From positions 109,829 to 173,828 of the forward strand of contig URFH01000001.1 of NCBI GenBank assembly GCA_900547155.1: a stretch of 64,000 nucleotides of DNA, in the 5' to 3' direction. A program made the translations under genes and the position numbers. Source of the stretch: an uncultured bacterium. Its GTDB lineage: Bacteria; Cyanobacteriota; Vampirovibrionia; Gastranaerophilales; Gastranaerophilaceae. Positions 2,466 through 63,983 of the stretch are shown one piece after another (the first letter of the stretch is position 1; each line of letters opens with the position of its first letter). The notes beneath the pieces were generated by a model that saw only the letters and a program-made list of their open reading frames with translations, was not told where the DNA came from and did not search any database.

Positions 2466-2987
2466 TTATAAGTGCCTCAAAATAAGTTGACCATTTTCAT
2501 CAAAACAATCATCTCCCACCCAATGAGCTTCTAATTCTCCATTTACTTTATATATATATGCTTCATTACGAGACACAACTAAAGTAACATTAATCAATTT
2601 ACCATTTATATTATATTTATATGCTTTAGTTGGTGAAATTAAACTCGAATACACATCAAATTCCTCCAACTTACCAGATTTATCATAAAAATAAGCAATA
2701 TTTTTATTCTTATTATAAACAATACCATAACTGCCATCCGAAAACCATTCAATCTTCCTATCACCCAAATCCACAACACCACTGGTTTTCGTCTTCTTAT
2801 TTTCCTTAAAATTTCTATCCCGCAAATGCTCCTTAAACGAAGAAACCGGTATTTTGTACTTTACACCGTCAAAAGCCTCCTTACGCGCACTTTCCACCGT
2901 ATACACAACACCGCCCTCAAGCGTCAGGCCATACGCAATCGGCATTTGAAGCAAAATTATTAAGATTATCCAAAATATCCTTTGCAT
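2466..2987 (-). CDS. small secreted protein, cassette copy 2 (173 aa), unknown function
   Basis: The signal peptide and first 60 codons are near-identical to the gene at 1960-1439, including the upstream bases ACAATAT...TATTGAGAAA. The remaining 110 residues are diverged (KTKTSGVVDLGDRKIEWF against SYRTNGIVDLADRRIEWF). They keep the WFSDGSYGI motif and the order of Tyr-rich hairpins, ending HWVGDDCFDENG. This pattern, a fixed export signal with a varying mature half, is what gene conversion or selection for diversity would leave. No function can be assigned. Confidence 0.6.
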   Translation of the reverse strand: MQRIFWIILIILLQMPIAYGLTLEGGVVYTVESARKEAFDGVKYKIPVSSFKEHLRDRNFKENKKTKTSGVVDLGDRKIEWFSDGSYGIVYNKNKNIAYFYDKSGKLEEFDVYSSLISPTKAYKYNINGKLINVTLVVSRNEAYIYKVNGELEAHWVGDDCFDENGQLILRHL

Positions 2988-3047
2988 TTTCTCAATATAT
3001 CACAATTTTTCAGCACTTTCCATATACATATTTTCGTGAAAAAAATT

Positions 3048-3224
3048 GTCATGCTGAACTTGTTTCAAAATCGCAAGATTGAAGCTGATGAGCACCGTTC
3101 TTGCGACCCTGAAACAAGTTCAGGGTGACGAAAATAGGCCGTCATTCCGAACTTGATTCGGAATCGCAAGATTGAAGCCGATGAGCACCGTTCTTGCAAC
3201 CCTGAAACAAGTTCAGGGTGTCAT
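3048..3224. repeat. two tandem dispersed palindromic repeats, CTGAACTTGTTTCA type
   Basis: Two units, 3048-3130 and 3141-3224, each have a left arm CTGAACTTGTTTCA (copy 2: CCGAACTTGATTCGG) and a right arm TGAAACAAGTTCAG around a shared middle that includes GATGAGCACCGTTCTTGC. The same arm sequence recurs at 24591, 41962, 42073 and 48608. The units fill the gap between the chaperone terminator and the secreted-protein cassette. They are non-coding dispersed repeats of unknown role. Confidence 0.75.
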
Positions 3225-3242
3225 TATAAACGTTTCAAAGAA

Positions 3243-3275
3243 AAAGGAGATAAGCCACCAAAAACTTATCTCCTG
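3243..3275 (-). terminator. intrinsic terminator after the terminase-portal-chaperone operon
   Basis: Read on the minus strand, GGAGATAAG and CTTATCTCC form a perfect 9-bp stem with a 10-base loop, followed by TTTTT. It closes the phage operon about 40 bases after the second chaperone frame stops, so the tape-measure pieces further on need their own promoter. Confidence 0.75.
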
Positions 3276-3314
3276 AAAGAAATTGCATAGAAAGAAGTAA
3301 TATATGAAAGATAT

Positions 3315-3551
3315 TTATCTTATGCTGCTTGCAATCCGGCTGAGACTTTTTATTGCCTCAGCCCCCACAAGCGGTTTTTGAGCAGCCGGTGAAGCAGAAT
3401 TGATTTTTGACTGCAAATCAAGATAAGTGTAATACACAGCATAGAGTTTTCTCGGAGTTGCAGCCCAGAATTCCGAATCCGACCATCCGAGAACCTTCCT
3501 CGCAACCGTGTAATCTTCAACCCAGCTAAAAGTTTCCTGCTCTATTTCTCT
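3315..3551 (-). CDS. tail-assembly chaperone, C-terminal half made by -1 frameshift
   Basis: This open frame has 78 residues and no usable start codon (no ATG, and no GTG or TTG near the beginning). It begins exactly on the run of nine A that ends the upstream chaperone gene and lies in its -1 frame. The protein contains the stretch VLGWSDSEFWAATPRKL, which resembles the second tail-assembly chaperone found after gp10 in gene-transfer agents and related siphophages (W...G...FW..TP..L). A ribosome slipping back one base on AAA AAA would make a 199-residue fusion of the two parts, the arrangement known for lambda G/GT. No other way to express this frame is apparent. Confidence 0.65.
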   Translation of the reverse strand, partial: REIEQETFSWVEDYTVARKVLGWSDSEFWAATPRKLYAVYYTYLDLQSKINSASPAAQKPLVGAEAIKSLSRIASSIR

Positions 3552-53470: not shown

Positions 53471-53595
53471 GGAGTACGGGATTATATTGCCTTTTCCGTT
53501 CCGATTCCTCCGGCATTCAACAATTAATTCAAAATTTGCAGGTTTTATGACGCCTCCCCCATAGTCACTCCAAAGGCAATATAATCCCGTACTCC
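53471..53595. repeat. 24-base perfect inverted repeat carrying TATAAT in each arm
   Basis: Arms 53471-53494 and 53572-53595 are exact complements around 77 bases. Read outward, each arm contains AAAGGCAATATAATCCCGTA, so they could be two divergent promoter cores, one toward the glycosyltransferase gene. The same TATAATCCCGTAC string, with GGAAA before it, precedes the terminase genes (7262-7246). GCATTCA in the loop also pairs with TGAATGC right of the second arm. Confidence 0.6.
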
Positions 53596-53650
53596 TTTGC
53601 GTGCTGAATGCTTGATTTTTTTTAACAAAATTCAACCAGAACTACCAAAG

Positions 53651-53733
53651 TTTAGCCGGTTGGCATTTGATTTTTCGCAGCCTATGAGCCCCCGGCGAAT
53701 CGAGCAAGAAAAATTAAATGCCAACCGGCTAAA
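53651..53733. repeat. variable-arm hairpin element 1
   Basis: Left arm 53651-53676 and right arm 53708-53733 are complementary at 25 of 26 positions, the exception being a G-T pair. The core 53677-53707 reads GCAGCCTATGAGCC....GGCGAATCGAGCAA. Left edge CTACCAAAG, right edge CGCC. Confidence 0.8.
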
Positions 53734-53749
53734 CGCCTCAACATCCAAA

Positions 53750-53833
53750 GTTCAAATGATTAAATTTCAATTTTTCTAGCTCGATTCGCTGGCGCTCATA
53801 GGCGTCGAAAAATTGAAATTTAATCATTTGAAC
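53750..53833. repeat. variable-arm hairpin element 2, core inverted
   Basis: Arms 53750-53776 and 53807-53833 are perfect complements over 27 bases, with a sequence unlike element 1. The core 53777-53806 is the reverse complement of the core of the other elements (TAGCTCGATTCGCT....GGCGTC). The edges (ATCCAAAG on the left, CGC on the right) keep the usual orientation. Confidence 0.85.
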
Positions 53834-53933
53834 GCGCAAAAACTTAACATTTTTAACAAAAAATCGATTTTATGGCAACTTTCCGTTCCCCATTGTTTTA
53901 AAATAAAAAAGTGAAGCATACGGAAGCAGAAAA

Positions 53934-54953
53934 TTGATTTCTCTACAAGTCAATCCATATAAAAGCAAAATAGCTTTTGCCCAGAGCCCCCCGCCCCAGA
54001 AACCAATCGCGGCAAACTCTGTTTCAAAAGACGAAAATCTCCGGATTCAGGCTGATGAAGCAATGAAATCAGGGTATTTTGACCGTGCAATAAATTTGTA
54101 CAAACAAGCCCTTGAACTCAACCCTGAAAATCCGGACGCAAACCTGAATTTAGCCAAAACCTACAAATTAAATTCCGACTTTAAAAACGCAATCCCCTAT
54201 TTTGAAAAAGCATGCGCGCAAACGCCCGACGACCTTGAACTTATGACCCTGCTCGGTGAATGTTACAAACAAAACGGGGATTATACAAAAGCAGAAACAC
54301 AGTTCAAGCGCGTTTTAAACAAAGAACCCGCTTACGATTACGCAAAAAGAAACCTCCTCGACACTCAAAACCTGCGTCTGGCGTGCTTTGACCCGATAAA
54401 AGCCTACAACGAACGCCAGAAAACAGCAAACGAAAACCTGCGTACAGCAATTTCACTGGCATCAGGATTTTTGCCCAAGGATATAGTCAAAAAAGTTCAA
54501 GATGTTACCGTAACCTTTGATAAAACCGCACAAATGGGCGGGCGTTCCAACATTGCCCAATACGAACACGCAAAACGTAAAATTTCCATTCAGGATGAAT
54601 ATACTTACGCAAGCCCCGTTCTTACAGCGAGCTACACAGTACATGAATTCATTCACGCAGCGGACAATGACCCCTATACATCGGTAAGAGAAGAACAAGA
54701 CGCCTACCGCCAGCAGGCGAGATTCTGGGAAAAGAATGCAAAAAATGTAAAAGACCCTGAAATGGACTACGTTGTGGATTTGTACAAACAGTCCGCCGAA
54801 ACCCTTGATAAAAGGGTCGCTGAAATCTATCTCCTGCGCGATCCGGGAATCCCCGAAACCTCATACAATCATCCTCCGGGAACAAAAAAAGCTGCAGCAT
54901 CGGGCTTGAATTCTTCGGCGTCCACACTGAAAGCCTATGACATTATTGTCTAA
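53934..54953 (+). CDS. TPR protein with HExxH putative metallopeptidase domain (339 aa)
   Basis: Residues 35-150 hold three to four tetratricopeptide repeats (MKSGYFDRAINLYKQALEL, DANLNLAKTYKLNSDFKNA, GDYTKAETQFKRVL). From residue 160 a new domain contains TVHEFIHAADND (about 236), a zinc-peptidase HExxH motif, followed by helices with Glu residues (REEQDAYRQQARFWE) that may give the third ligand. No signal peptide is seen; the N-terminus has SKIAFAQ, the short motif of other unknown proteins here. The start is a TTG behind ACGGAAG. I do not recognise this TPR-peptidase combination as a named family. Confidence 0.6.
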   Translation: MISLQVNPYKSKIAFAQSPPPQKPIAANSVSKDENLRIQADEAMKSGYFDRAINLYKQALELNPENPDANLNLAKTYKLNSDFKNAIPYFEKACAQTPDDLELMTLLGECYKQNGDYTKAETQFKRVLNKEPAYDYAKRNLLDTQNLRLACFDPIKAYNERQKTANENLRTAISLASGFLPKDIVKKVQDVTVTFDKTAQMGGRSNIAQYEHAKRKISIQDEYTYASPVLTASYTVHEFIHAADNDPYTSVREEQDAYRQQARFWEKNAKNVKDPEMDYVVDLYKQSAETLDKRVAEIYLLRDPGIPETSYNHPPGTKKAAASGLNSSASTLKAYDIIV

Positions 54954-56074
54954 ATAAGCCCTTTTTTGCTCTTCTTTTTCTTTTTTTTATCGTCCAAATC
55001 CCGTTTTGCATTGTCAACGGACAATTTTGCCAGCGGAAGCCCCTTTGAACGGTCATAGAAAACAAGCCAGTGCTTTCTTTTCACATTGTCAACAGCAAAT
55101 GATATTTTTCCGCTAACCCTGTCACCCGGCTTAATTTTGGAGAACATTAACGTCGTATCACCAAAAACTGACGGATAATAAGAAGCGTTCATGTCATTCA
55201 TCAGCGCAATATCAAATCCTGTAAAATATTTCTCCGTCAAATTTGTTATCACAAGCGAAATTGTAATAGTATTAAGCTCGCCAAAAGGATCCTTTTCATA
55301 ACCTACATTAGTAATTTTTACATTCAATCCGTCATATATGATTTCTTCCTGCTTCAAAGCCTCCTTTGAAAATACAGGCAGCGCAATTGAACTGGTAATT
55401 TTCACCCTGATTTCATCTCCAGGAGAAATCAAAACATCCTTACCTTTTCTGTACAAAGCCATCCCGAGCCCTACAGCACCGCCCAGAGCAGCACCGCCGG
55501 CGACTGTATAGCCCTGACTTGCGATGGCAGCAGGCAATCCGAACATATTTAAAGCCAGAAGCCCTCCAACAAGCCCGCCTGCCGCAGTATATCCGGTGCT
55601 TACCGCAACATTTCGCGCCGTAGCTGTAACGGGATTCATTTTTGTGCTCATTTCCCCTTTTATGGGTATTTCCCGCCCATCCGGCGTAATCAAATAGTCA
55701 AAACTTACCTCAATCCATCCGTCACGCCCTAGCCTTTTGCTGTCGCTTATTTCTCTGACACAACCGTGCGCAATTGTTCCGGTAGGGAGGATTACCCCCT
55801 TATCGCCCTCAACTTCGGAGGAAATTTCCGCAAAAAACTCATCCCCTTCTTCGGTAAAACCGGAGCTCAAAACCTGAGAAACGGTCATTTTTATAACATC
55901 ACGGCTTTTCAACTCATCAATCTCGCCCGTGAACATTTTTTCGTCTTTCAGCTTCTTAGAGTCCGTAACTTCTGCATGCCCGTGCAGCGGCTCCTCCGAA
56001 AACGCAGGCAAACCCGCACATAAATGCGTAAAAACAAACGCTGCAAGTATAAAAGATGAAAACAACTTCTTCAT
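54950..56074 (-). CDS. secreted protein with VirB10-like and DUF4352-like parts (374 aa)
   Basis: A signal peptide (SSFILAAFVFTHLCAGLPAFS) is followed by VILPTGTIAHGCVREISDS and DYLITPDGREIPIKGE, wording similar to the periplasmic beta-domain of TrbI/VirB10-like proteins. A glycine/alanine-rich hydrophobic hairpin follows (TAAGGLVGGLLALNMFG; AAIASQGYTVAGGAALGGAVG). The C-terminal 110 residues (LNVKITNVGYEKDPFGELNT, ISLVITNLTEKYF) resemble DUF4352-type immunoglobulin-like domains. The end is a run of lysines. It is probably an envelope protein. It converges with the TPR-HExxH gene, sharing four bases at the ends. Confidence 0.55.
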   Translation of the reverse strand: MKKLFSSFILAAFVFTHLCAGLPAFSEEPLHGHAEVTDSKKLKDEKMFTGEIDELKSRDVIKMTVSQVLSSGFTEEGDEFFAEISSEVEGDKGVILPTGTIAHGCVREISDSKRLGRDGWIEVSFDYLITPDGREIPIKGEMSTKMNPVTATARNVAVSTGYTAAGGLVGGLLALNMFGLPAAIASQGYTVAGGAALGGAVGLGMALYRKGKDVLISPGDEIRVKITSSIALPVFSKEALKQEEIIYDGLNVKITNVGYEKDPFGELNTITISLVITNLTEKYFTGFDIALMNDMNASYYPSVFGDTTLMFSKIKPGDRVSGKISFAVDNVKRKHWLVFYDRSKGLPLAKLSVDNAKRDLDDKKKKKKSKKGLI

Positions 56075-56161
56075 ATCAAAATTTTACCTCATAAAGTTTC
56101 AAAAATCATATTTGTAACAAAAAAAGACGCACTCCTACCTAAATAAATGAATCTCGCAACA

Positions 56162-56243
56162 GTCCAAACTGCGTATATTAATTTTTCGACGCCTAAGAGC
56201 GCCAGCGAATCGAGCTAGAAAAATTAATATACGCAGTTTGGAC
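56162..56243. repeat. variable-arm hairpin element 3
   Basis: Arms 56162-56187 and 56218-56243 are perfect complements over 26 bases (outer part GTCCAAACTGCGTATATT, again unlike the other elements) around the core 56188-56217, GACGCCTAAGAGCG.... Right edge GCC. It lies between the divergent secreted-protein and kinase genes. Confidence 0.85.
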
Positions 56244-56287
56244 GCCCATGTTTCCCCAACGAAAAATATAAAAAAAAGCTTAATTTT

Positions 56288-56326
56288 TTGTGAAATTACA
56301 AATCAAATTGCTATAATAAGTCTATG
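56288..56326 (+). promoter_or_regulatory. leaderless-type promoter of the histidine kinase gene
   Basis: TTGTGA (56288-56293), 18 bases, then a perfect TATAAT (56312-56317), then six bases to the ATG at 56324. No ribosome site exists between, so translation would begin at the 5' end of the mRNA. Confidence 0.6.
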
Positions 56327-57283
56327 GAAATCAATTTTGAAAAAATCCTGAATACATTGGAGCTTCCAATCGCAATTTTCGACGAAAATGACCGCATAAT
56401 ATATTCAAATGCGCAGTTCCAAAAGGTTTTCGCCCAAATGGAGCAAAATCTCACCCTTGAAGAACTCAAAAACCATTTTCCGCAATATACTTTCGGCTTA
56501 AAACAGTCCAAAAACCTGAAAATCCTTACAATAAAAGAAAATCAGGGCAGCCTTGATGAAGCTTATTCAGAATTCGTTTCCACAGTGAGCCACGAGCTGA
56601 GAACCCCACTCACCAGTATCAGAGGCTTTGCAGACACAATGCAAAACTCATACGACAGGCTCGAAAAAGCTCAAATTGTAAAATTTCTCGGGATAATAAA
56701 AGACCAGTCAAACAGGCTCATAAAACTTGTGGAAAATCTGCTTTCCATATCGAAAATGCAGGCGCAAAAGGAAAATTTTATCTACAAATCCATTCAAATA
56801 AAAGACCAAATTGCGCAAATTCTGCCAATCCTGCAAAAACAATACCCCTCACACAAATTTTTACTGAAAACTTCCGGATTCATCCCCCCGATACTTGCCG
56901 ATGAAAACAAATTTCAACAAATTTTAATAAACCTGCTCGATAATGCCGCAAAATATTCCCCCCCGTGCTCAAACGTAAAAATCCAAATCACAGACTGCGA
57001 CAATATGGTAAGCATAAAGATAAAAGACGAGGGTTCGGGCATTGCAGAAAAGGATTTCGACAAAATTTTTGAAAAATTTGTAAGAATAGAAAACCATCTG
57101 ACCCAAAAAGCCGAAGGCAGCGGGCTCGGGCTTTATATTGTTAAAAATCTCATTGAAAAAATGGGCGGAAAAATCTCCTTAATCAGCTCCCAAACACCCC
57201 CGACCGGCACCGAATTCACAATAACCCTGCCTGTAGCAAATTACACCGCGCAAAGCGGTAAAAAATTAAAGGAGAACCGCTAA
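56324..57283 (+). CDS. soluble PAS histidine kinase (319 aa)
   Basis: A short PAS domain (LPIAIFDENDRIIYSNAQF, residues 14-75) is followed by a HisKA segment with the phosphoacceptor VSHELRTPLTSIRGFADT (about residue 90). A HATPase domain follows with N-box NLLDNAAKYSPP, G1 DEGSGIAEKDF and G2 GSGLGLYIVKNL. No membrane segment is present, so it senses something in the cytoplasm. It shares the last base with the start of the next gene, which encodes the likely phosphate-acceptor partner. Confidence 0.88.
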   Translation: MEINFEKILNTLELPIAIFDENDRIIYSNAQFQKVFAQMEQNLTLEELKNHFPQYTFGLKQSKNLKILTIKENQGSLDEAYSEFVSTVSHELRTPLTSIRGFADTMQNSYDRLEKAQIVKFLGIIKDQSNRLIKLVENLLSISKMQAQKENFIYKSIQIKDQIAQILPILQKQYPSHKFLLKTSGFIPPILADENKFQQILINLLDNAAKYSPPCSNVKIQITDCDNMVSIKIKDEGSGIAEKDFDKIFEKFVRIENHLTQKAEGSGLGLYIVKNLIEKMGGKISLISSQTPPTGTEFTITLPVANYTAQSGKKLKENR

Positions 57284-58593
57284 TGCTCTCAAAAGTCGTA
57301 CTTCTCCTCGACAAAAGACGGGAACTTTCAACAAAATACAAAAAACTCCTTGAACAAAACAGCACAAAAGTCTTTGTTTCTGATACGGCAGAGCGTGCGT
57401 TTGAGCTTTTGTGCGAATATGAACCGGATTTGGTGCTAATCTCTGACAGCCTCGAGGCAACGCTTTCAGAAACCTGCAAAAAATTAAGAATGCTGGGCTA
57501 TTCCTCAAGACCGGTAATCGTTGCGCTCTCAAAATCCGAAGATATAAACGACAAACTTTCGGCGCTGGACGCAGGAGCTGATGACTTTTTGAGCGAGCCA
57601 ATCGATCCGGAAGAATTCAAAGCCAGAATAAACGCCCATTTAAGACGGCATATTGAAAACTCGCTGGATGAAATCACAAACCTGCCCGATTCAAAAATTT
57701 CCTTCCGGGTTTTAAAAAGAACTATAGTCGAAAACCGGAACTGGGCGGCAATGCTCATAAAAATAAACAATTTTGAGCAATATTTGGAGATTTACGGCGA
57801 ACTGGCAGCAGATAAAATGCGCCAGACTTTTAGCGCGATTGTAGCGTCAACATTAGATGAAAATGACTTCATCGGTGAGCTTGTTGACGGTGAATTTCTC
57901 GTTATTACGAACTATTTGAAAGCAGAACATATTGCGAATTTCGTAATCTACGCGTTCAATACAATTGTTGAAAAATTTTACACAGAAAATGACGTAAAAC
58001 AGGGTTATATAATACTCAAAGGCGATGAAAACGAAGGGAAAAGAGTAGAATTGGCGTCCACCGGCATAGGTATAATTTCTAACGAGCTAAAAACATACAA
58101 CAGCCTGAAAAATGCCCTAAATTCACTGATTGCCGCGAACAAACTGGCAAAACTCAAGCCCGGTTCCGCTTATATAATCGACCATCCTGAAATCAGTGCA
58201 GCCGATTCGGTAGAAAAACGCGAATATAACAACAGACTTATGATTATTGAACGCGATGACGCGCTGAACCTGCTTTTGCAGACCACAGCGCAAATGCAGG
58301 GCTATGACGCGGCTATCGGCATTAAACCAACGATTGAAAGCGTTCTGAAATTCCGCCCCGCAGTGCTGATTCTTGACGCAGGCGACACAAAAAAACTCGA
58401 CGGAATAGAATTTTGCAAAAAACTACGCACTATTGACGAACTAAAAGATATGAAAATAATTTTGTCAACAATCGTCCATGACAAAAAGCTGATTCTTGAC
58501 GCAGGCGCAGACCTGTATTTGCCAAAACCTTACGAATTGGTTAATATTTTCAGCTGGGTAGAGCGCTTAATCTCTGAATACAACGAATCGTAA
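57283..58593 (+). CDS. REC-degenerate GGDEF-REC response regulator (436 aa)
   Basis: Residues 1-120 form a receiver domain (LVLISDSLE, but SEPID where the conserved Lys-Pro is expected, so it may not switch normally). Residues 130-300 resemble a GGDEF cyclase domain in which the signature is changed to LVDGEFLVI, so cyclic-di-GMP synthesis is unlikely. Residues 312-436 are a second receiver with an intact VLILDAGD (Asp about 368) and LPKPYEL (Lys). The kinase encoded just upstream is the natural partner. The arrangement recalls PleD-like proteins, but with the domain order changed. Confidence 0.75.
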   Translation: MLSKVVLLLDKRRELSTKYKKLLEQNSTKVFVSDTAERAFELLCEYEPDLVLISDSLEATLSETCKKLRMLGYSSRPVIVALSKSEDINDKLSALDAGADDFLSEPIDPEEFKARINAHLRRHIENSLDEITNLPDSKISFRVLKRTIVENRNWAAMLIKINNFEQYLEIYGELAADKMRQTFSAIVASTLDENDFIGELVDGEFLVITNYLKAEHIANFVIYAFNTIVEKFYTENDVKQGYIILKGDENEGKRVELASTGIGIISNELKTYNSLKNALNSLIAANKLAKLKPGSAYIIDHPEISAADSVEKREYNNRLMIIERDDALNLLLQTTAQMQGYDAAIGIKPTIESVLKFRPAVLILDAGDTKKLDGIEFCKKLRTIDELKDMKIILSTIVHDKKLILDAGADLYLPKPYELVNIFSWVERLISEYNES

Positions 58594-58598
58594 GAAAA

Positions 58599-59519
58599 TT
58601 AATCATTTTCAATAATTTTTATTGTGCACGGCGGATAATCAGCCGCGGTGTCGTATCCAGCATTTGCACAATTCGCATCCAGGTTATAAGAAATAGGGAA
58701 CCCTAACCCGGAAGCAGCGCTAAGTTGCAGCTGACGCAGCGAAGTCAAAGCAGCATTTGCTCCTGTTGCATTTGGCACATTGGAAAAACTCATTGCATCT
58801 TTTGCCCAGTTCACACCATTGCCAAAAGCCCCGTTAGTAGCAGATTTCAAATTCATAGGAGAAGATTGCCCATTTTCCAGATTTGGCGTTGCATAAACAA
58901 TCCTTGCCATGAGGTAACTTCCATCATACTGTGCAACCCCATCCGGAAGAAGCGTACCGTCCGTCATACTTATAAAAAACGGCACAAGGTCAGTTTTTTT
59001 ATTTTCCCCCAGAGTAACATTGTTAGGCCATTTTGAACCATTTATATCTACGTAAATATAATAAACACCCAACGGCCAATTTTTCTCAAAAAGATAAAAT
59101 CTCATGCCGTTACTTGCCACAAAAGTAGGATTGGCAGTAACCTTTCCGTCGCCATCAACAAAATTTCCAGTACCCGAAAGAATATTTCCACAGTTCGTAT
59201 AGGTTGTGTTAATATAGCCCTCATCTCTTGACGCAAGCTTGTTACATAAGTCAGTTACATTTTGCGGAAATTTCTTTATATCATCTTCGTCAACAGTAGT
59301 TCCGTTTGCGTTTGCTTCATTATAAAGATTTTCGTTATACTCATAAACATCGGCATTTATGTTATAAAGCGCTGTATTCAAAATGTTATATGCCTTATAA
59401 GCAAGCTTGCCGTACATTTTATCACTCGGTCGAATCATCGTAATCATCGCAACGGCAATAACACCGACAATTACCAGTACAATAAGAATTTCAGCAGTAG
59501 AAAAACCTTTTTTAAACAT
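58599..59519 (-). CDS. type IV pilin-like/pseudopilin protein (306 aa)
   Basis: The N-terminus KKGFSTAEILIVLVIVGVIA is a class-III prepilin signal: cleavage after the Gly, a Phe at +1 and the Glu at +5, followed by the hydrophobic helix. The globular part is long and rich in Asn, Gly and Tyr, and it ends with two cysteines near CANAGYDTAADYPPC that may form a disulphide loop. It could be a pilin, competence pseudopilin or minor pilin; with dprA nearby, DNA uptake is one possibility. The ribosome site GGAGAAG lies inside the end of the DUF3326 gene, which overlaps by eight bases. Confidence 0.75.
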   Translation of the reverse strand: MFKKGFSTAEILIVLVIVGVIAVAMITMIRPSDKMYGKLAYKAYNILNTALYNINADVYEYNENLYNEANANGTTVDEDDIKKFPQNVTDLCNKLASRDEGYINTTYTNCGNILSGTGNFVDGDGKVTANPTFVASNGMRFYLFEKNWPLGVYYIYVDINGSKWPNNVTLGENKKTDLVPFFISMTDGTLLPDGVAQYDGSYLMARIVYATPNLENGQSSPMNLKSATNGAFGNGVNWAKDAMSFSNVPNATGANAALTSLRQLQLSAASGLGFPISYNLDANCANAGYDTAADYPPCTIKIIEND

Positions 59520-60495
59520 ATTCTTCTCCGGATTGCAATATTTTTATATATTCATCATAAGTATCTATTTCTATTATATCATTTTGCAAATTTATTGCAC
59601 CCCTTGTAATTTCCAGCACTGTTTTGTTCTCTCTGACAGCATAAACAGGAATTCCGTTCTTAACAGCGTCAAAAACCACAGCAGAGCCCAGAGAATCACA
59701 GGGCATAACAATAGAATGCAAATTTTTGTAAGTCAAACAGCCCTCCTGCACGCCTTTCCTGATTAAAGGCGCATTTTGCAGCCCCAGAAGGATACAGGGC
59801 AAAAATGTGGGCGTAATATACTCCGCGCTGACCTTAGGGCTGACAATATCTCCTTTTATTTCAACATCCGCAAAAGCAGGCGCATGAGCGCACGGGCACA
59901 TGAGATTTTTTGAAAGATAATGAGAGATTACCCCCTCTATCCCGCCGACAATATCCACGCCAGCACCGTTTTCATAATCATCTTCGCCCGGTTCCTCAAA
60001 AAATGCGACAACCGCAAGAGCGTCAGCCCCTTTTTCGAGTAATTTTTTCCCTGCTTTCAGCAATGTTTCGGGATTTTTGACCGTACCGGTGGAAATTCCG
60101 GATCCCGAGGTAAAAAATTCAACCCCCGCGCACTCCTGCGTGATTTCATACCCGATAATATCAACATCATAAACAGTTTTAACCGCATTCATAGTATTTA
60201 TGTGGATATTCAGCACGTTTTCAGGAATTGCCCTGTCAAAAATTATACCGATTTTGTTATTTTTATGAGGCAAAAGGGAAATCCCGCCACGCACAAAACC
60301 GGACATGCTCCAACCCTCAACATAAAGCATATTTTCATTAATTCCCGAAAAAACCGCAGCATTAACGACATTCGGATTAACAATCAAAGGCGCAGCTTTT
60401 GACAATTTTCTTGCAATAGGGTTTGCATCCCCCGCATAACCGCCATGTTCAGCCCCCACACCGGTAGGAACAATCATCATTGCATACTTTTTCAT
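59512..60495 (-). CDS. DUF3326 family protein (327 aa)
   Basis: The sequence MMIVPTGVGAEHGGYAGDANP, NPNVVNAAVFSGINENMLYVEG and CPCAHAPAFADVEI matches DUF3326, a family well represented in cyanobacteria and plants with no proven function. The start at 60495 overlaps the metallo-hydrolase stop as ATGA; the longer frame to 60531 would read through the neighbouring gene. No signal or membrane segment is present. It is the middle gene of a three-gene unit. Confidence 0.75.
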   Translation of the reverse strand: MKKYAMMIVPTGVGAEHGGYAGDANPIARKLSKAAPLIVNPNVVNAAVFSGINENMLYVEGWSMSGFVRGGISLLPHKNNKIGIIFDRAIPENVLNIHINTMNAVKTVYDVDIIGYEITQECAGVEFFTSGSGISTGTVKNPETLLKAGKKLLEKGADALAVVAFFEEPGEDDYENGAGVDIVGGIEGVISHYLSKNLMCPCAHAPAFADVEIKGDIVSPKVSAEYITPTFLPCILLGLQNAPLIRKGVQEGCLTYKNLHSIVMPCDSLGSAVVFDAVKNGIPVYAVRENKTVLEITRGAINLQNDIIEIDTYDEYIKILQSGEEYV

Positions 60496-61172
60496 AACTC
60501 GATAGAATCTCCGGGCGTGAGAATAACACATTTTAGACCGGCAGCCTCAGCTTTACGCTTAAATTCCTCTTCATCGGCAACAATTGTCGGGAAAGTATTG
60601 TAGTGCATAGGAATAACGGTCTTCGCACCGAGCCATTTTGCCGCAACAACCGCGTCATCAATGCCCATTGTATAAGTTCCGCCTATCGGCAAAAGCGCAA
60701 TATCAGGAGGCATTGTTTCACCGATAACTTTCATCTCCATATTCAAGCAATTATCGCCTGCATGATAAACCCTGACACCATCAAGCTCAAGCATTACAGA
60801 AGCGGGCATTCCCGCGTAACCGCCGTCAGGAGTGGAGCTGCTGTGAAAAGCAGGGCAAAATTTTGCATATCCACCGTTAATTGCTATACGGGCGCCTATT
60901 CCCACACCAGAAGCATTTGCCCCGTTGTCAGAACAGTATCTTGCGAGCTCAAAAATTGTAGTCAACGGCACCCCGTAATCGCGCGAAATCTGTATTGAAT
61001 CCCCCAGATGATCCATATGTCCGTGCGTAACAAGGATATCCTTGATATTTTCATACTTTATAAGGCAAACTGCCGACGGATTGTGCGTGATAAAAGGATC
61101 AATTAAAACACCGGCTTCTCCCGCCGCAATAAAAAACCCGCTATGACCAATATAATTAATAAATACAGACAT
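60492..61172 (-). CDS. UPF0173 metal-dependent hydrolase, MBL fold (226 aa)
   Basis: The metallo-beta-lactamase motif THGHMDHLGD (about residue 50), further zinc ligands in AFHSS (about 108) and HAGDNC (about 138), and PMHYNTFPTI (about 190) define the UPF0173 family. The substrate is unknown. The ATG at 61172 follows AGAGGT; the frame to 61193 would add seven residues without a ribosome site. It is coupled to the DUF3326 gene by an ATGA overlap. Confidence 0.85.
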   Translation of the reverse strand: MSVFINYIGHSGFFIAAGEAGVLIDPFITHNPSAVCLIKYENIKDILVTHGHMDHLGDSIQISRDYGVPLTTIFELARYCSDNGANASGVGIGARIAINGGYAKFCPAFHSSSTPDGGYAGMPASVMLELDGVRVYHAGDNCLNMEMKVIGETMPPDIALLPIGGTYTMGIDDAVVAAKWLGAKTVIPMHYNTFPTIVADEEEFKRKAEAAGLKCVILTPGDSIEL

Positions 61173-61306
61173 GAAGACCTCTTTTTTGTTCAATTATAGC
61201 AAATTCCCCAAAAAATTTCAGAATATTTCTTGAAAATCATCTAAATACACTGTTTTAAAAATGCAAACATGGTTTATAATATGTGAATAAATAAAGTGGG
61301 ATAATT

Positions 61307-62386
61307 ATGGAACGAATACTTGTTGAAGATTTAATCCAATACAAAATGATACCATTCGACCTCTATAACGATAGAGGCATAAAACTTATGAGCGCGGGCG
61401 AAATCCTGACATCCGGAAAACTCCTGCGGGTCAGCCAGTATGACATTCTTTATAAAGAAATCCCGCCAAAACCCAAACAACATCCAAAACCGCAGCCTCA
61501 GCCCGAAAAAGCACCAGAACAAAAAACAGAAGAAAAGAAAAAAACACCCCCTCAGGAAGAACAGGCTGAAAAAGCCCAAAAAACTAAAGAACAAGAAAAA
61601 GAGCCGGAAGAAAACGAACACGATATAATCGACGAAACCGCCTCGGACATCGTTGTGAATTCAACAGCAAAAATTAAACCGGATTTTCAAATAAAAATGA
61701 AAACGAACTACGCAAATTCCATATCATCGCTGAAAATCCACGAAAGTAAAGAAGCTGTAAAACAAATCAACGAGATGAAGTCAAAAATTCTCTCCGAAAT
61801 AGGCACAATAATTGATGACGTAAAATTCTGCTCGCAATTGAAGCTTCTGGGCGATTATTACAACACGCACTCGCTGAACACATCAATACTTGCGACCGCA
61901 CTGGGCTACAAACTGGAATTTGACTCTGAAAAAATCGAAAACCTCACCCAGAGCGCGCTTTTACACGACATCGGAATGACAAAATTCCCTCCTGAGCTTC
62001 TGAACAAAACAAAACGCTCAAATAAAGACGAAAAACTGCTTGAAAAACATACACTCATCGGCTATAAAATTTTAAAAGATGAAATGAAAATGCCCGAGGA
62101 AATTTGCCGTGTAGCGCTTGAACATCATGAAAACCATGACGGTTCGGGTTATCCTTACGGGCTTTCCGGCGACCAAATCGGCGAATTAAGCAGAATCGTC
62201 GGACTTTGCAGCCTTTTTGACGACCTTACATCAGGCAGAACAAAACATAAAGTAAAAAACACAAAAGACGCCCTGCGTATCATGCTGGAATTCGGCTCAC
62301 ACCGCTTTCCTCCGGAGCTTTTGTACAAATTCGTGAACATGTTCCGCTACAATGATTTGAACACATTTGATGAAATGGTGCAATAA
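61307..62386 (+). CDS. HD-GYP domain protein with Pro/Glu/Lys-rich linker (359 aa)
   Basis: Residues 1-48 form a small unknown domain (DLYNDRGIKLMSAGEIL). Residues about 50-105 are a low-complexity linker of K, P, E and Q. The catalytic domain shows ALLHDIGMTKFPPEL (HD, about 223) and EHHENHDGSGYPYGLSG (GYP motif, about 278), as in cyclic-di-GMP phosphodiesterases. It may lower the second messenger. The -10-like TATAAT lies at 61275-61280 and the ribosome site is GTGGGA. The stop shares one base with the trmFO start. Confidence 0.82.
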   Translation: MERILVEDLIQYKMIPFDLYNDRGIKLMSAGEILTSGKLLRVSQYDILYKEIPPKPKQHPKPQPQPEKAPEQKTEEKKKTPPQEEQAEKAQKTKEQEKEPEENEHDIIDETASDIVVNSTAKIKPDFQIKMKTNYANSISSLKIHESKEAVKQINEMKSKILSEIGTIIDDVKFCSQLKLLGDYYNTHSLNTSILATALGYKLEFDSEKIENLTQSALLHDIGMTKFPPELLNKTKRSNKDEKLLEKHTLIGYKILKDEMKMPEEICRVALEHHENHDGSGYPYGLSGDQIGELSRIVGLCSLFDDLTSGRTKHKVKNTKDALRIMLEFGSHRFPPELLYKFVNMFRYNDLNTFDEMVQ

Positions 62387-63693
62387 TGAAAGCAGTAGTA
62401 ATCGGAGGCGGATTGGCAGGCTCTGAAGCCGCATTGCAACTGGCAAAAAGAGGGATTGAAGTCGATTTATACGAAATGCGCCCGAAAAAGACCACAGGTG
62501 CGCACAAAACCGAAAATCTTGCGGAATTTGTCTGCTCAAACAGCCTCGGCTCTTTTGACGTAACAAATGCAAGCGGGCTTTTGAAAAAAGAAATGTCAAT
62601 TCTGGGTTCTTTTTTGATAAAAGCAGCTTTTGATTCGGCGGTTCCGGCGGGCGCGGCTCTGGCGATTGACAGGGAGCTTTTTTCTTCAAAAGTCACAAAA
62701 ATGATTGAAGAAAACCCGAAAATTAACCTGATTAGAGAAGAAATAACAGAAATTCCCGACGCACCGGCGATTATCGCCTCCGGCCCCCTAACTTCGGAGG
62801 TTTTTGCCGAAAAAATCAAAGATTTTTGCTCGCAGGAACATCTTCACTTTTTTGACGCAATCGCACCGATTGTGGAAAAAGATTCAATAAATTTTGACAT
62901 AGCTTTTTACGCAAGCCGCTACGACAAAGGCGAAGCCTCTTACATAAACTGCCCGATGAATAAAGAACAGTATGAAAATTTCTACAGAATTCTCACCACG
63001 GCTGAAAAAATCGAGCTGAAAGATTTTGAAAAAGACGCAAAATTCTTTGAATCCTGCCTTCCTGTCGAGGTTTTGGCTTCCAGAGGCGAGGATACGCTCC
63101 GTTTTGGCCCGATGAAACCGGTTGGATTGGTTGACAAACGCACAGGTGAGCAAAATTACGCGGTTGTTCAGCTCCGTCAGGACAATTTATCCGCTTCAAT
63201 GTACAATCTGGTTGGTTTTCAGACAAATTTAAAATGGGGCGCGCAAAAAGAGCTTGTTCATTCAATCCCGGGGCTTGAAAACGCAAATATTCTAAGATAC
63301 GGCGTAATGCACAGAAATACGTTCATAAACAGCCCCAAAATCCTGAACAAATTCTTGCAGTGCAAAAAACGCGAAAATCTTTTCTTTGCCGGACAAATCA
63401 CAGGCACCGAGGGCTATACAGAATCTATTGCAACCGGAATGTACGCAGGAATAAACCTTGCGCGGCTCCTGAACGGCGAAAAATTCCTTGAATTACCCGA
63501 CATAACAATGCTCGGTGCATTAACAACCTATATTTCCTTTGAAGAGCACAAGCATTTTCAGCCTGTAAACTCAAACTGGGGCATTGTAAAGACGCTTGAT
63601 GCGGACAAAAAGACGAGAAAAAACAAAAAGCTCAAAAACGAACTTCTTGCAAAACGCTCGATTGATTATTTGGAAACGCTTGAATTAATTTAG
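62386..63693 (+). CDS. trmFO: methylenetetrahydrofolate-tRNA-(uracil-5-)-methyltransferase TrmFO (435 aa)
   Basis: The FAD motif VVIGGGLAGSEAALQLAKRG at the N-terminus, MRPKKTTGAHKTENLAEFVCSNS (with the conserved Cys), FDAIAPIVEKDSI, INCPMNKEQYENFY and AGQITGTEGYTESIATG are the TrmFO signatures. It makes ribothymidine at position 54 of tRNA using folate instead of SAM. The length is normal. Translation is coupled to the HD-GYP gene. The region after it holds only hairpin repeats. Confidence 0.95.
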   Translation: MKAVVIGGGLAGSEAALQLAKRGIEVDLYEMRPKKTTGAHKTENLAEFVCSNSLGSFDVTNASGLLKKEMSILGSFLIKAAFDSAVPAGAALAIDRELFSSKVTKMIEENPKINLIREEITEIPDAPAIIASGPLTSEVFAEKIKDFCSQEHLHFFDAIAPIVEKDSINFDIAFYASRYDKGEASYINCPMNKEQYENFYRILTTAEKIELKDFEKDAKFFESCLPVEVLASRGEDTLRFGPMKPVGLVDKRTGEQNYAVVQLRQDNLSASMYNLVGFQTNLKWGAQKELVHSIPGLENANILRYGVMHRNTFINSPKILNKFLQCKKRENLFFAGQITGTEGYTESIATGMYAGINLARLLNGEKFLELPDITMLGALTTYISFEEHKHFQPVNSNWGIVKTLDADKKTRKNKKLKNELLAKRSIDYLETLELI

Positions 63694-63758
63694 GCTATTT
63701 TAACCCCTGACGCAAAAATTTAACAAAAATTCACCCCACCCCCAACCAACTCCCAAAA

Positions 63759-63841
63759 GTTCAAAGATAATTGAATGAATTTTTCGACGCCTATGAGCGA
63801 AGCGAATCGAGCTAGAAAAATTTATTCAATTTTCTTTGAAC
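63759..63841. repeat. variable-arm hairpin element 4
   Basis: Arms 63759-63785 and 63815-63841 match at 25 of 27 positions (one of the two exceptions is a G-T pair) around the core 63786-63814, GACGCCTATGAGCGAAGCGA.... Left edge CCCAAAA, right edge GCAACAGC. Confidence 0.85.
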
Positions 63842-63900
63842 GCAACAGCAAAAATCGCGAAAATCTCACAAAAATTCACCGCCCCCAACCAACTTCCAAA

Positions 63901-63983
63901 GTTCAAAGATGATTGAATGAATTTTTCGACGCCTATGAGCGAAGCGAATCGAGCTAGAAAAATTTATTCAATTTTCTTTGAAC
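63901..63983. repeat. variable-arm hairpin element 5
   Basis: Arms 63901-63927 and 63957-63983 match at 24 of 27 positions, two of the three exceptions being G-T pairs. The core 63928-63956 is identical to that of element 4. The two elements and their flanks repeat with a 142-base period, and the sequence to the window edge (GCAACAGCAAAAATCGC) begins a further period. Confidence 0.85.

Follow-up and report, generated by a model that had tools for sequence, protein, structure and literature searches.

Dispersed hairpins with conserved heads and freely varying, paired stems in an uncultured Gastranaerophilales bacterium

Introduction

REPINs are doublets of REP sequences that form hairpins, and compensatory changes are reported to be common in them (PMC3116915); REP tags read GT(A/G)G (PMC2817692), and in one survey bacterial stem-loop families were clustered by sequence similarity (PMC2267715). 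Here we describe five hairpins, E1 to E5 (family A), in a 64,000-nucleotide (nt) stretch of DNA from an uncultured Gastranaerophilales bacterium (contig URFH01000001.1, positions 109,829 to 173,828; hereafter the window). Each has a conserved central head between two arms that differ in sequence from locus to locus while remaining paired. A search of the literature found no paper on these elements, and our best reading is that they are dispersed hairpins of a new build, not members of a named family.

REPINs resemble them in being dispersed intergenic hairpins with a sequence-free pairing part, compensatory changes and tandem clusters, but REPINs keep their outer ends (the inverted REPs) and vary in the middle, whereas here the head, with or without a short foot, is kept and the outer stem is free (PMC3116915). 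In Anabaena variabilis, palindromes whose 27-nt arms follow one consensus enclose many of the GTAG-15 dimers (PMC3733652). The compact core within a palindrome and the arm length are alike, but those arms fit a single consensus with some free positions and their core is a GTAG dimer, whereas arms in our elements are unrelated between many loci and the heads lack GTAG. Integron attC sites likewise show very limited sequence conservation in an imperfect palindrome, one strand of which is recombined as a folded single strand (PMC8946536); no integron gene array was seen here, however, and the foot reads CAAA-G...C-GC (hyphens mark the edges of the stem). Hairpin elements of sponge mitochondria are also dispersed, mobile-looking and in part tandem, with two types that differ by a few complementary substitutions, but their stems are conserved and their loops vary, the opposite pattern (PMC2800124). 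TIGR-Tas arrays set variable yet consistently palindromic stems beside fixed motifs, but they are arranged in arrays, have two spacers of 8-12 nt and come with a Nop-domain protein, whereas most copies described here are dispersed and their free part is a paired stem of ~18-30 nt (PMC12045711).

Results

Pairing is kept while the sequence of the arms is free

The original prediction for this DNA described five hairpins with a fixed core and locus-specific arms, and on direct reading all five fold as described (Table 1), with heads of 29-31 nt. The bounds then given stand for E2 to E5; E1 extends one base further on either side. E4 and E5 are tandem duplicates 142 bp apart whose arms differ by a single base (an A-T pair in E4 is G-T in E5), so the window holds four independent arm sequences rather than five. 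On the + strand the left edge CCAAA(A)-G occurs in four of the five elements (E3 lacks it) and the right edge C-GC in all five, as first reported; the inner arm end thought common to all, AATTTTTC, reads GATTTTTC in E1. Two small hairpins fold within the family A head, a structure that covariation does not support. In E2 the head runs opposite to the element's own edges, the sole example seen, and it looks as though the loop between two perfect arms had been flipped.

Table 1. Hairpins of families A and B in the window
Feature	Position	Strand	Arms	Paired	Description
E1, family A	53650..53734	+	53650-53676/53708-53734	26/27 Watson-Crick + one G-T	27-bp arms, 31-nt head; edges CCAAA / GCC
E2, family A	53750..53833	-	53750-53776/53807-53833	27/27	27-bp perfect arms; head on -, edges CCAAA / GC on +
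E3, family A	56162..56243	+	56162-56187/56218-56243	26/26	26-bp perfect arms; right GC edge, no left CAAA
E4, family A	63759..63841	+	63759-63785/63815-63841	25/27	27-bp arms; unit one of 142-bp tandem duplication
E5, family A	63901..63983	+	63901-63927/63957-63983	24/27	unit two of E4/E5 tandem duplication
B hairpin	53471..53595	-			24-bp perfect arms, 77-nt head GGAGTGACTATGGGGGA...GGAGGAATCGGAACGGA; edges GCAAA / GCC on - strand

Nine ungapped hairpins in the window reach a score of at least 18, including E1-E5 and one E4/E5 overlap, and 20 first-order Markov simulations of the window produced none (top score 16.5). For comparison we relied on one genome, G001 (Gastranaerophilales MAG E02__bin260), a fragmented metagenome-assembled genome (MAG) of which 917 kb were read. 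We treat it as probably congeneric with the window because TrmFO identity between the two is 91%, as against 80-81% for the next four genomes.

G001 carries three more intact copies with the family A head. Across eight A copies 98.5% of cells are paired, and both sides have changed in 17 of the 27 arm pairs. Double-change cells number 48, compared with 12.8 (standard deviation 2.8) after shuffling; none of 500 shuffles was as high, and slid controls gave at most 11. A covariance model built from eight A copies, the window's five included, scores those five at 89-99 bits. A second family, B, has the same properties: among 19 copies whose outer arms share no more than 70% identity, 96.2% of cells are paired and 102 show double changes, versus 28.6 after shuffling (maximum 44). 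The B head module is closed by a second free (inner) stem, in which G-C and C-G are swapped at pairs 2-4, and 30 of its 34 positions are conserved at 0.95 or above in these 19 copies, the other four standing at 0.53, 0.58, 0.58 and 0.89. Pairing is thus preserved while the arm sequence is free, as the original prediction held, with an excess of compensatory changes in both families. The outcomes named in advance as refuting it did not appear, although the three G001 A copies have mostly shared arms whose differences are mostly compensated. B copies on separate contigs also have related arms, and we conclude that arms were not captured at random.

As a control, a search that left the arms free (it replaces an earlier 22-copy set sought by arm sequence) showed that 18 of 20 GTAG-tagged short hairpins in the 917 kb of G001 have one identical arm; the ordinary palindromic repeats of this genome therefore keep their arms. 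The GTAG short repeat, GTAGGTCAGGC..GCCTGAC, occurs repeatedly in G001, including between B copies. Terminal inverted repeats conserved between copies, as in classical miniature inverted-repeat transposable elements, were not found, the arms differing between loci.

Template switching, by which a mobile core would copy its flank, had been among the explanations first offered. Hairpin-templated DNA repair of this kind, in which one arm is copied onto the other and the fold has no function, would produce double arm changes without selection, and several arms are perfect. It predicts neither several kinds of conserved head nor a shared foot, the GTAG repeats of G001 keep their arms, some dispersed arms here are related by descent and the mismatches left over are strand-biased, as detailed below. 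We regard it as unlikely.

One strand of the stem is favoured

Mismatches were scored, neutrally between G-T and A-C, in 1404 arm pairs of 58 copies pooled across families; E5, less than 45 nt from the window end, is left out of this set. Read on the head strand they comprise 81 G-T, 10 A-C (three of which stem from a single C-family arm extended past its foot) and 32 others. The 19 independent B copies alone, over 18-bp arms, give 17 G-T, 3 A-C and 10 others. Between neighbouring tandem copies (14 pairs, 304 pair sites) we counted 21 Watson-Crick/wobble changes and one involving A-C, along with 12 changes with other mismatches and one double change, these events not being independent; the difference between E4 and E5 contributes a further change from Watson-Crick to wobble. 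Such differences presumably arose after duplication, and array copies may exchange sequence. In addition, a left and a right purine are coupled in the heads of families B and C: of 41 copies, 20 have A/G and 21 have G/A, with no A/A or G/G among them. This count takes in arrays and a C copy on L164 that is outside the 58-copy set. Both forms occur in B (19 and 18) and in C (1 and 3).

Wobble tolerance is strand-specific. This excess of G-T over A-C, together with the A/G coupling in the head, is what is new here, and the two argue that the constraint acts on one folded strand, either RNA or single-stranded DNA (ssDNA). Template switching predicts neither of them. Strand-specific mutation, for instance deamination of a single-stranded head strand, would yield a G-T excess, since G-T results from either C to T or A to G on a single strand, and the rest would be ordinary repeat spread; the double changes and the purine coupling are left unexplained, which makes this account very improbable in our judgement. 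Equally hard to credit are cruciform DNA sites or ordinary transcription terminators. The stems are long and intergenic, and family E copies lie between convergent genes in three of four cases (the fourth has one side unknown), but a cruciform uses both strands alike and G-T should then equal A-C, as under every strand-blind process, contrary to the counts, while no T-run follows the stem in the right flanks of family A, the family scored. Of 14 copies of A, A2 and A3, moreover, 9 are flanked by divergent genes, a position for which larger gaps may account.

Another explanation is a multicopy structured RNA working in place. It would be transcribed and folded, its head would bind a protein or ligand and selection would keep the pairing, with spread being secondary. 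G-U is tolerated and A-C is not, also in the changes between tandem neighbours, and a conserved internal-loop-like head with a coupled purine pair lies between two free helices, all of which speaks for such an RNA. The evidence on its other side comes from placement and from Rfam, and is given below.

Sister families, feet and side variants

Sister families A2, B, C and E in G001 have other heads, equally free arms and often the same foot. The heads read ACCTATTCCAGCG...GCGAATCGAGG in A2, GGAGTGACTATGGRGGA...GGRGGAATCGGAACGGA (~77 nt) in B, CATGGRGGAGG...GGRGGAATC (~62 nt) in C and ACGTAAAAGCGGCTTTAGCCCGTTCCGG in E. In our own alignment, made by hand with no tool, the A, B and C heads appear to form one module, YATG-purines-A opposite purines-AATC. 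B is the largest family, with ~46 pattern matches in G001 versus 5 when the pattern is reversed; we examined 36 distinct copies, among them the window's B hairpin, which stands beside E1 and E2. The favoured strand, the flipped head of E2, the sister families and this B hairpin (53471-53595) all go beyond the original prediction.

Since heads were sought with few mismatches allowed, head conservation in pattern-collected copies is partly by construction; the recurrence of the same heads is independently evident from sequence-blind hairpin scans. A blind ungapped scan of 712 kb of G001 returned 33 hairpins at a score of at least 17, and 26 at a score of at least 18 with a loop of at most 130. 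At 18 or above, seven other genomes (380 kb) returned 6 hairpins and a set of four (338 kb) returned 7, none with the described heads by eye. The heads are conserved and the elements dispersed.

At the foot, CAAA on the left is accompanied by CGC/CGG on the right in 13 of the 22 copies from families A, A2, A3, C and E, and in 9 of the 36 B copies; the background frequencies are 0.085 and 0.183, each alone. No GTAG or GTGG tag was seen by eye at the foot among the 58 copies, whose feet are of CAAA/GC type or degenerate. The R box pair of attC, associated with the integron integrase, is RYYYAAC / GTTRRRY; by eye, no scan having been made, no R boxes were seen at these feet. The likeness to an attC recombination site, raised in the original prediction, holds in logic only, and the favouring of one folded strand that it entails is visible here only by proxy, as G-T over A-C on the head strand.

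Several variants were observed besides. In L051 (G001 C1) three A2 copies, at least two of them in tandem, carry ~70 extra head bases with further GC-rich inverted repeats. A three-B array in L105 (G001 C31, ~2847-3370) has a middle copy without its left head half, apparently lost by deletion between T-runs. Three hairpins of a further type, D (L057:12838-12934, L060:1690-1786 and L103:2913-3007), have imperfect arms of 33-42 nt and a terminator-like core, TTAAAACCCTACCCG..AAGGGC, and enter none of our counts. At window positions 3046-3223 two adjoining hairpins are made of a TGTCATGCTGAACTTG-type repeat.

Occurrence and placement

The exact A core was found in three stretches of an 84,980-species collection: two lie on two contigs of G001, and the third is in a Micrarchaeota record in which no arms were seen by eye. 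Among 99 relatives one has it. With model R1, under strict filters and with at most 31 candidates scored per genome, matches came from two of 146 genomes, one of them a weak, different hairpin. The B pattern, with at most one mismatch, matched 38 times in G001 and once in each of four others among 194 genomes, those four showing no hairpin by eye. Viral contigs had no A core, and four viral records contained one same stretch with a B sub-pattern, again with no hairpin by eye. Within the collections searched, the elements are restricted to one Gastranaerophilales genus. A lone long hairpin in G112, a genome of another genus (L088:334-420), has 30-nt arms, a 27-nt head, TCAAA before the stem and AGCC after it; its head has no repeat within the G112 stretches examined.

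The positions of hairpins differ between the window genome and G001. None of the three G001 gaps matching E1/E2, E3 and E4/E5 contains a family A hairpin (the G001 locus runs out close to the distal side of the E3 gap, and the window stops short of the gene that follows E4/E5), and the gap matching E1/E2 contains two B copies that are oriented oppositely to the window's B. Tandem arrays are common, with ~160-310 bp spacing. In the 917 kb and the window, B is present as 36 paired heads, one left half and one right half, and A as 7 paired, one and one; the single half-heads are diverged or deleted copies.

The 36 B copies are not oriented in any regular way to their neighbour genes (<E> 10, <E< 10, >E< 9, >E> 3, and 4 with one side unknown), and those whose neighbours both point the other way are equally well paired. 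A riboswitch or untranslated-region element was rejected on the former ground. Nor was a preference for a replication strand seen, the head strand having positive GC skew at 17 of 40 array-collapsed loci, with weak contig skews. For the structured RNA working in place, this indifference to neighbouring genes and the differing positions in the two genomes are unfavourable, as are the Rfam results for the window: 0 matches at gathering score, and at E<=1 only weak matches of the microRNA-precursor type and one small-RNA model. We consider such an RNA possible, though less likely than not.

Discussion

Like REPINs, the elements are dispersed intergenic hairpins with compensatory changes. We put at about even the chance that the elements are dispersed REPIN-like hairpins whose working form is a folded single strand with a long stem, carrying the head in sense. 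The head-sense strand would fold on itself, and a protein would most likely read the conserved head and, in many copies, the foot. The stem between head and foot would need pairing only, G-T included, and would drift by compensatory and wobble changes. Copies would spread into intergenic gaps, where some would then be multiplied by tandem duplication. The spread would resemble that of REPINs and may depend on an enzyme; RNA and ssDNA seem to us about equally probable as the folded strand.

Several points weigh against this reading. A mobilising enzyme was not found in G001, where a Y1 transposase (PF01797), a reverse transcriptase (PF00078) and PF00589 were sought. The single PF01797 match (C80:4987-5322) is separated by 154 bp from a GTAG hairpin (L070:4741-4833), and there are two PF00589 genes, a number no higher than in any of seven other genomes. 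The foot is absent from many B copies, and no copy encloses a gene in the 917 kb and the window. The comparison of orthologous gaps proposed at the outset, although it found family A absent from the matching G001 gaps, yielded no clean empty site, those gaps being too diverged to reveal one. Finally, the wobble bias is also found between neighbouring tandem copies, which selection at transposition alone explains less well than a constraint in place does; either the constraint also acts in place, as would be expected of a transcribed RNA, or there is sequence exchange between array copies and active ones.

A GTAG-tagged repeat doublet adjoins the one Y1-transposase gene in G001, and on the contig of that gene none of the families A, A2, B, C and E was found, so that no cognate Y1 gene flanked by an element was found in this genome. 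Membership of the RAYT-associated REPs was rejected on these grounds: the elements lack a GTAG tag, and the Y1 gene has a different, GTAG-tagged repeat. A reverse-transcribed element was likewise set aside, no PF00078 match being found in G001, which is weak evidence in a fragmented genome.

More tentatively, and with the balance tilting against it, the elements may represent a new class of mobile element that is defined by a single-strand fold and not by sequence. Its members would share an internal-loop module with non-Watson-Crick purine pairs, drifting stems and a common foot, and would be read as RNA or ssDNA by a protein of the lineage. If so, it is a shape that would be inherited, maintained while the sequence changes.

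Repeats in bacteria are as a rule detected and classified by their sequence. In these hairpins the longest part is sequence-free and only head, foot and fold persist; such elements therefore partly escape repeat searches. The numerous copies constitute a natural data set for measuring a strand-specific structural constraint directly, as wobble versus A-C, and they raise the concrete question of which protein reads the head, and whether it does so on RNA or on ssDNA. If the elements are mobile, the REPIN idea would extend past RAYT transposases and GTAG tags.

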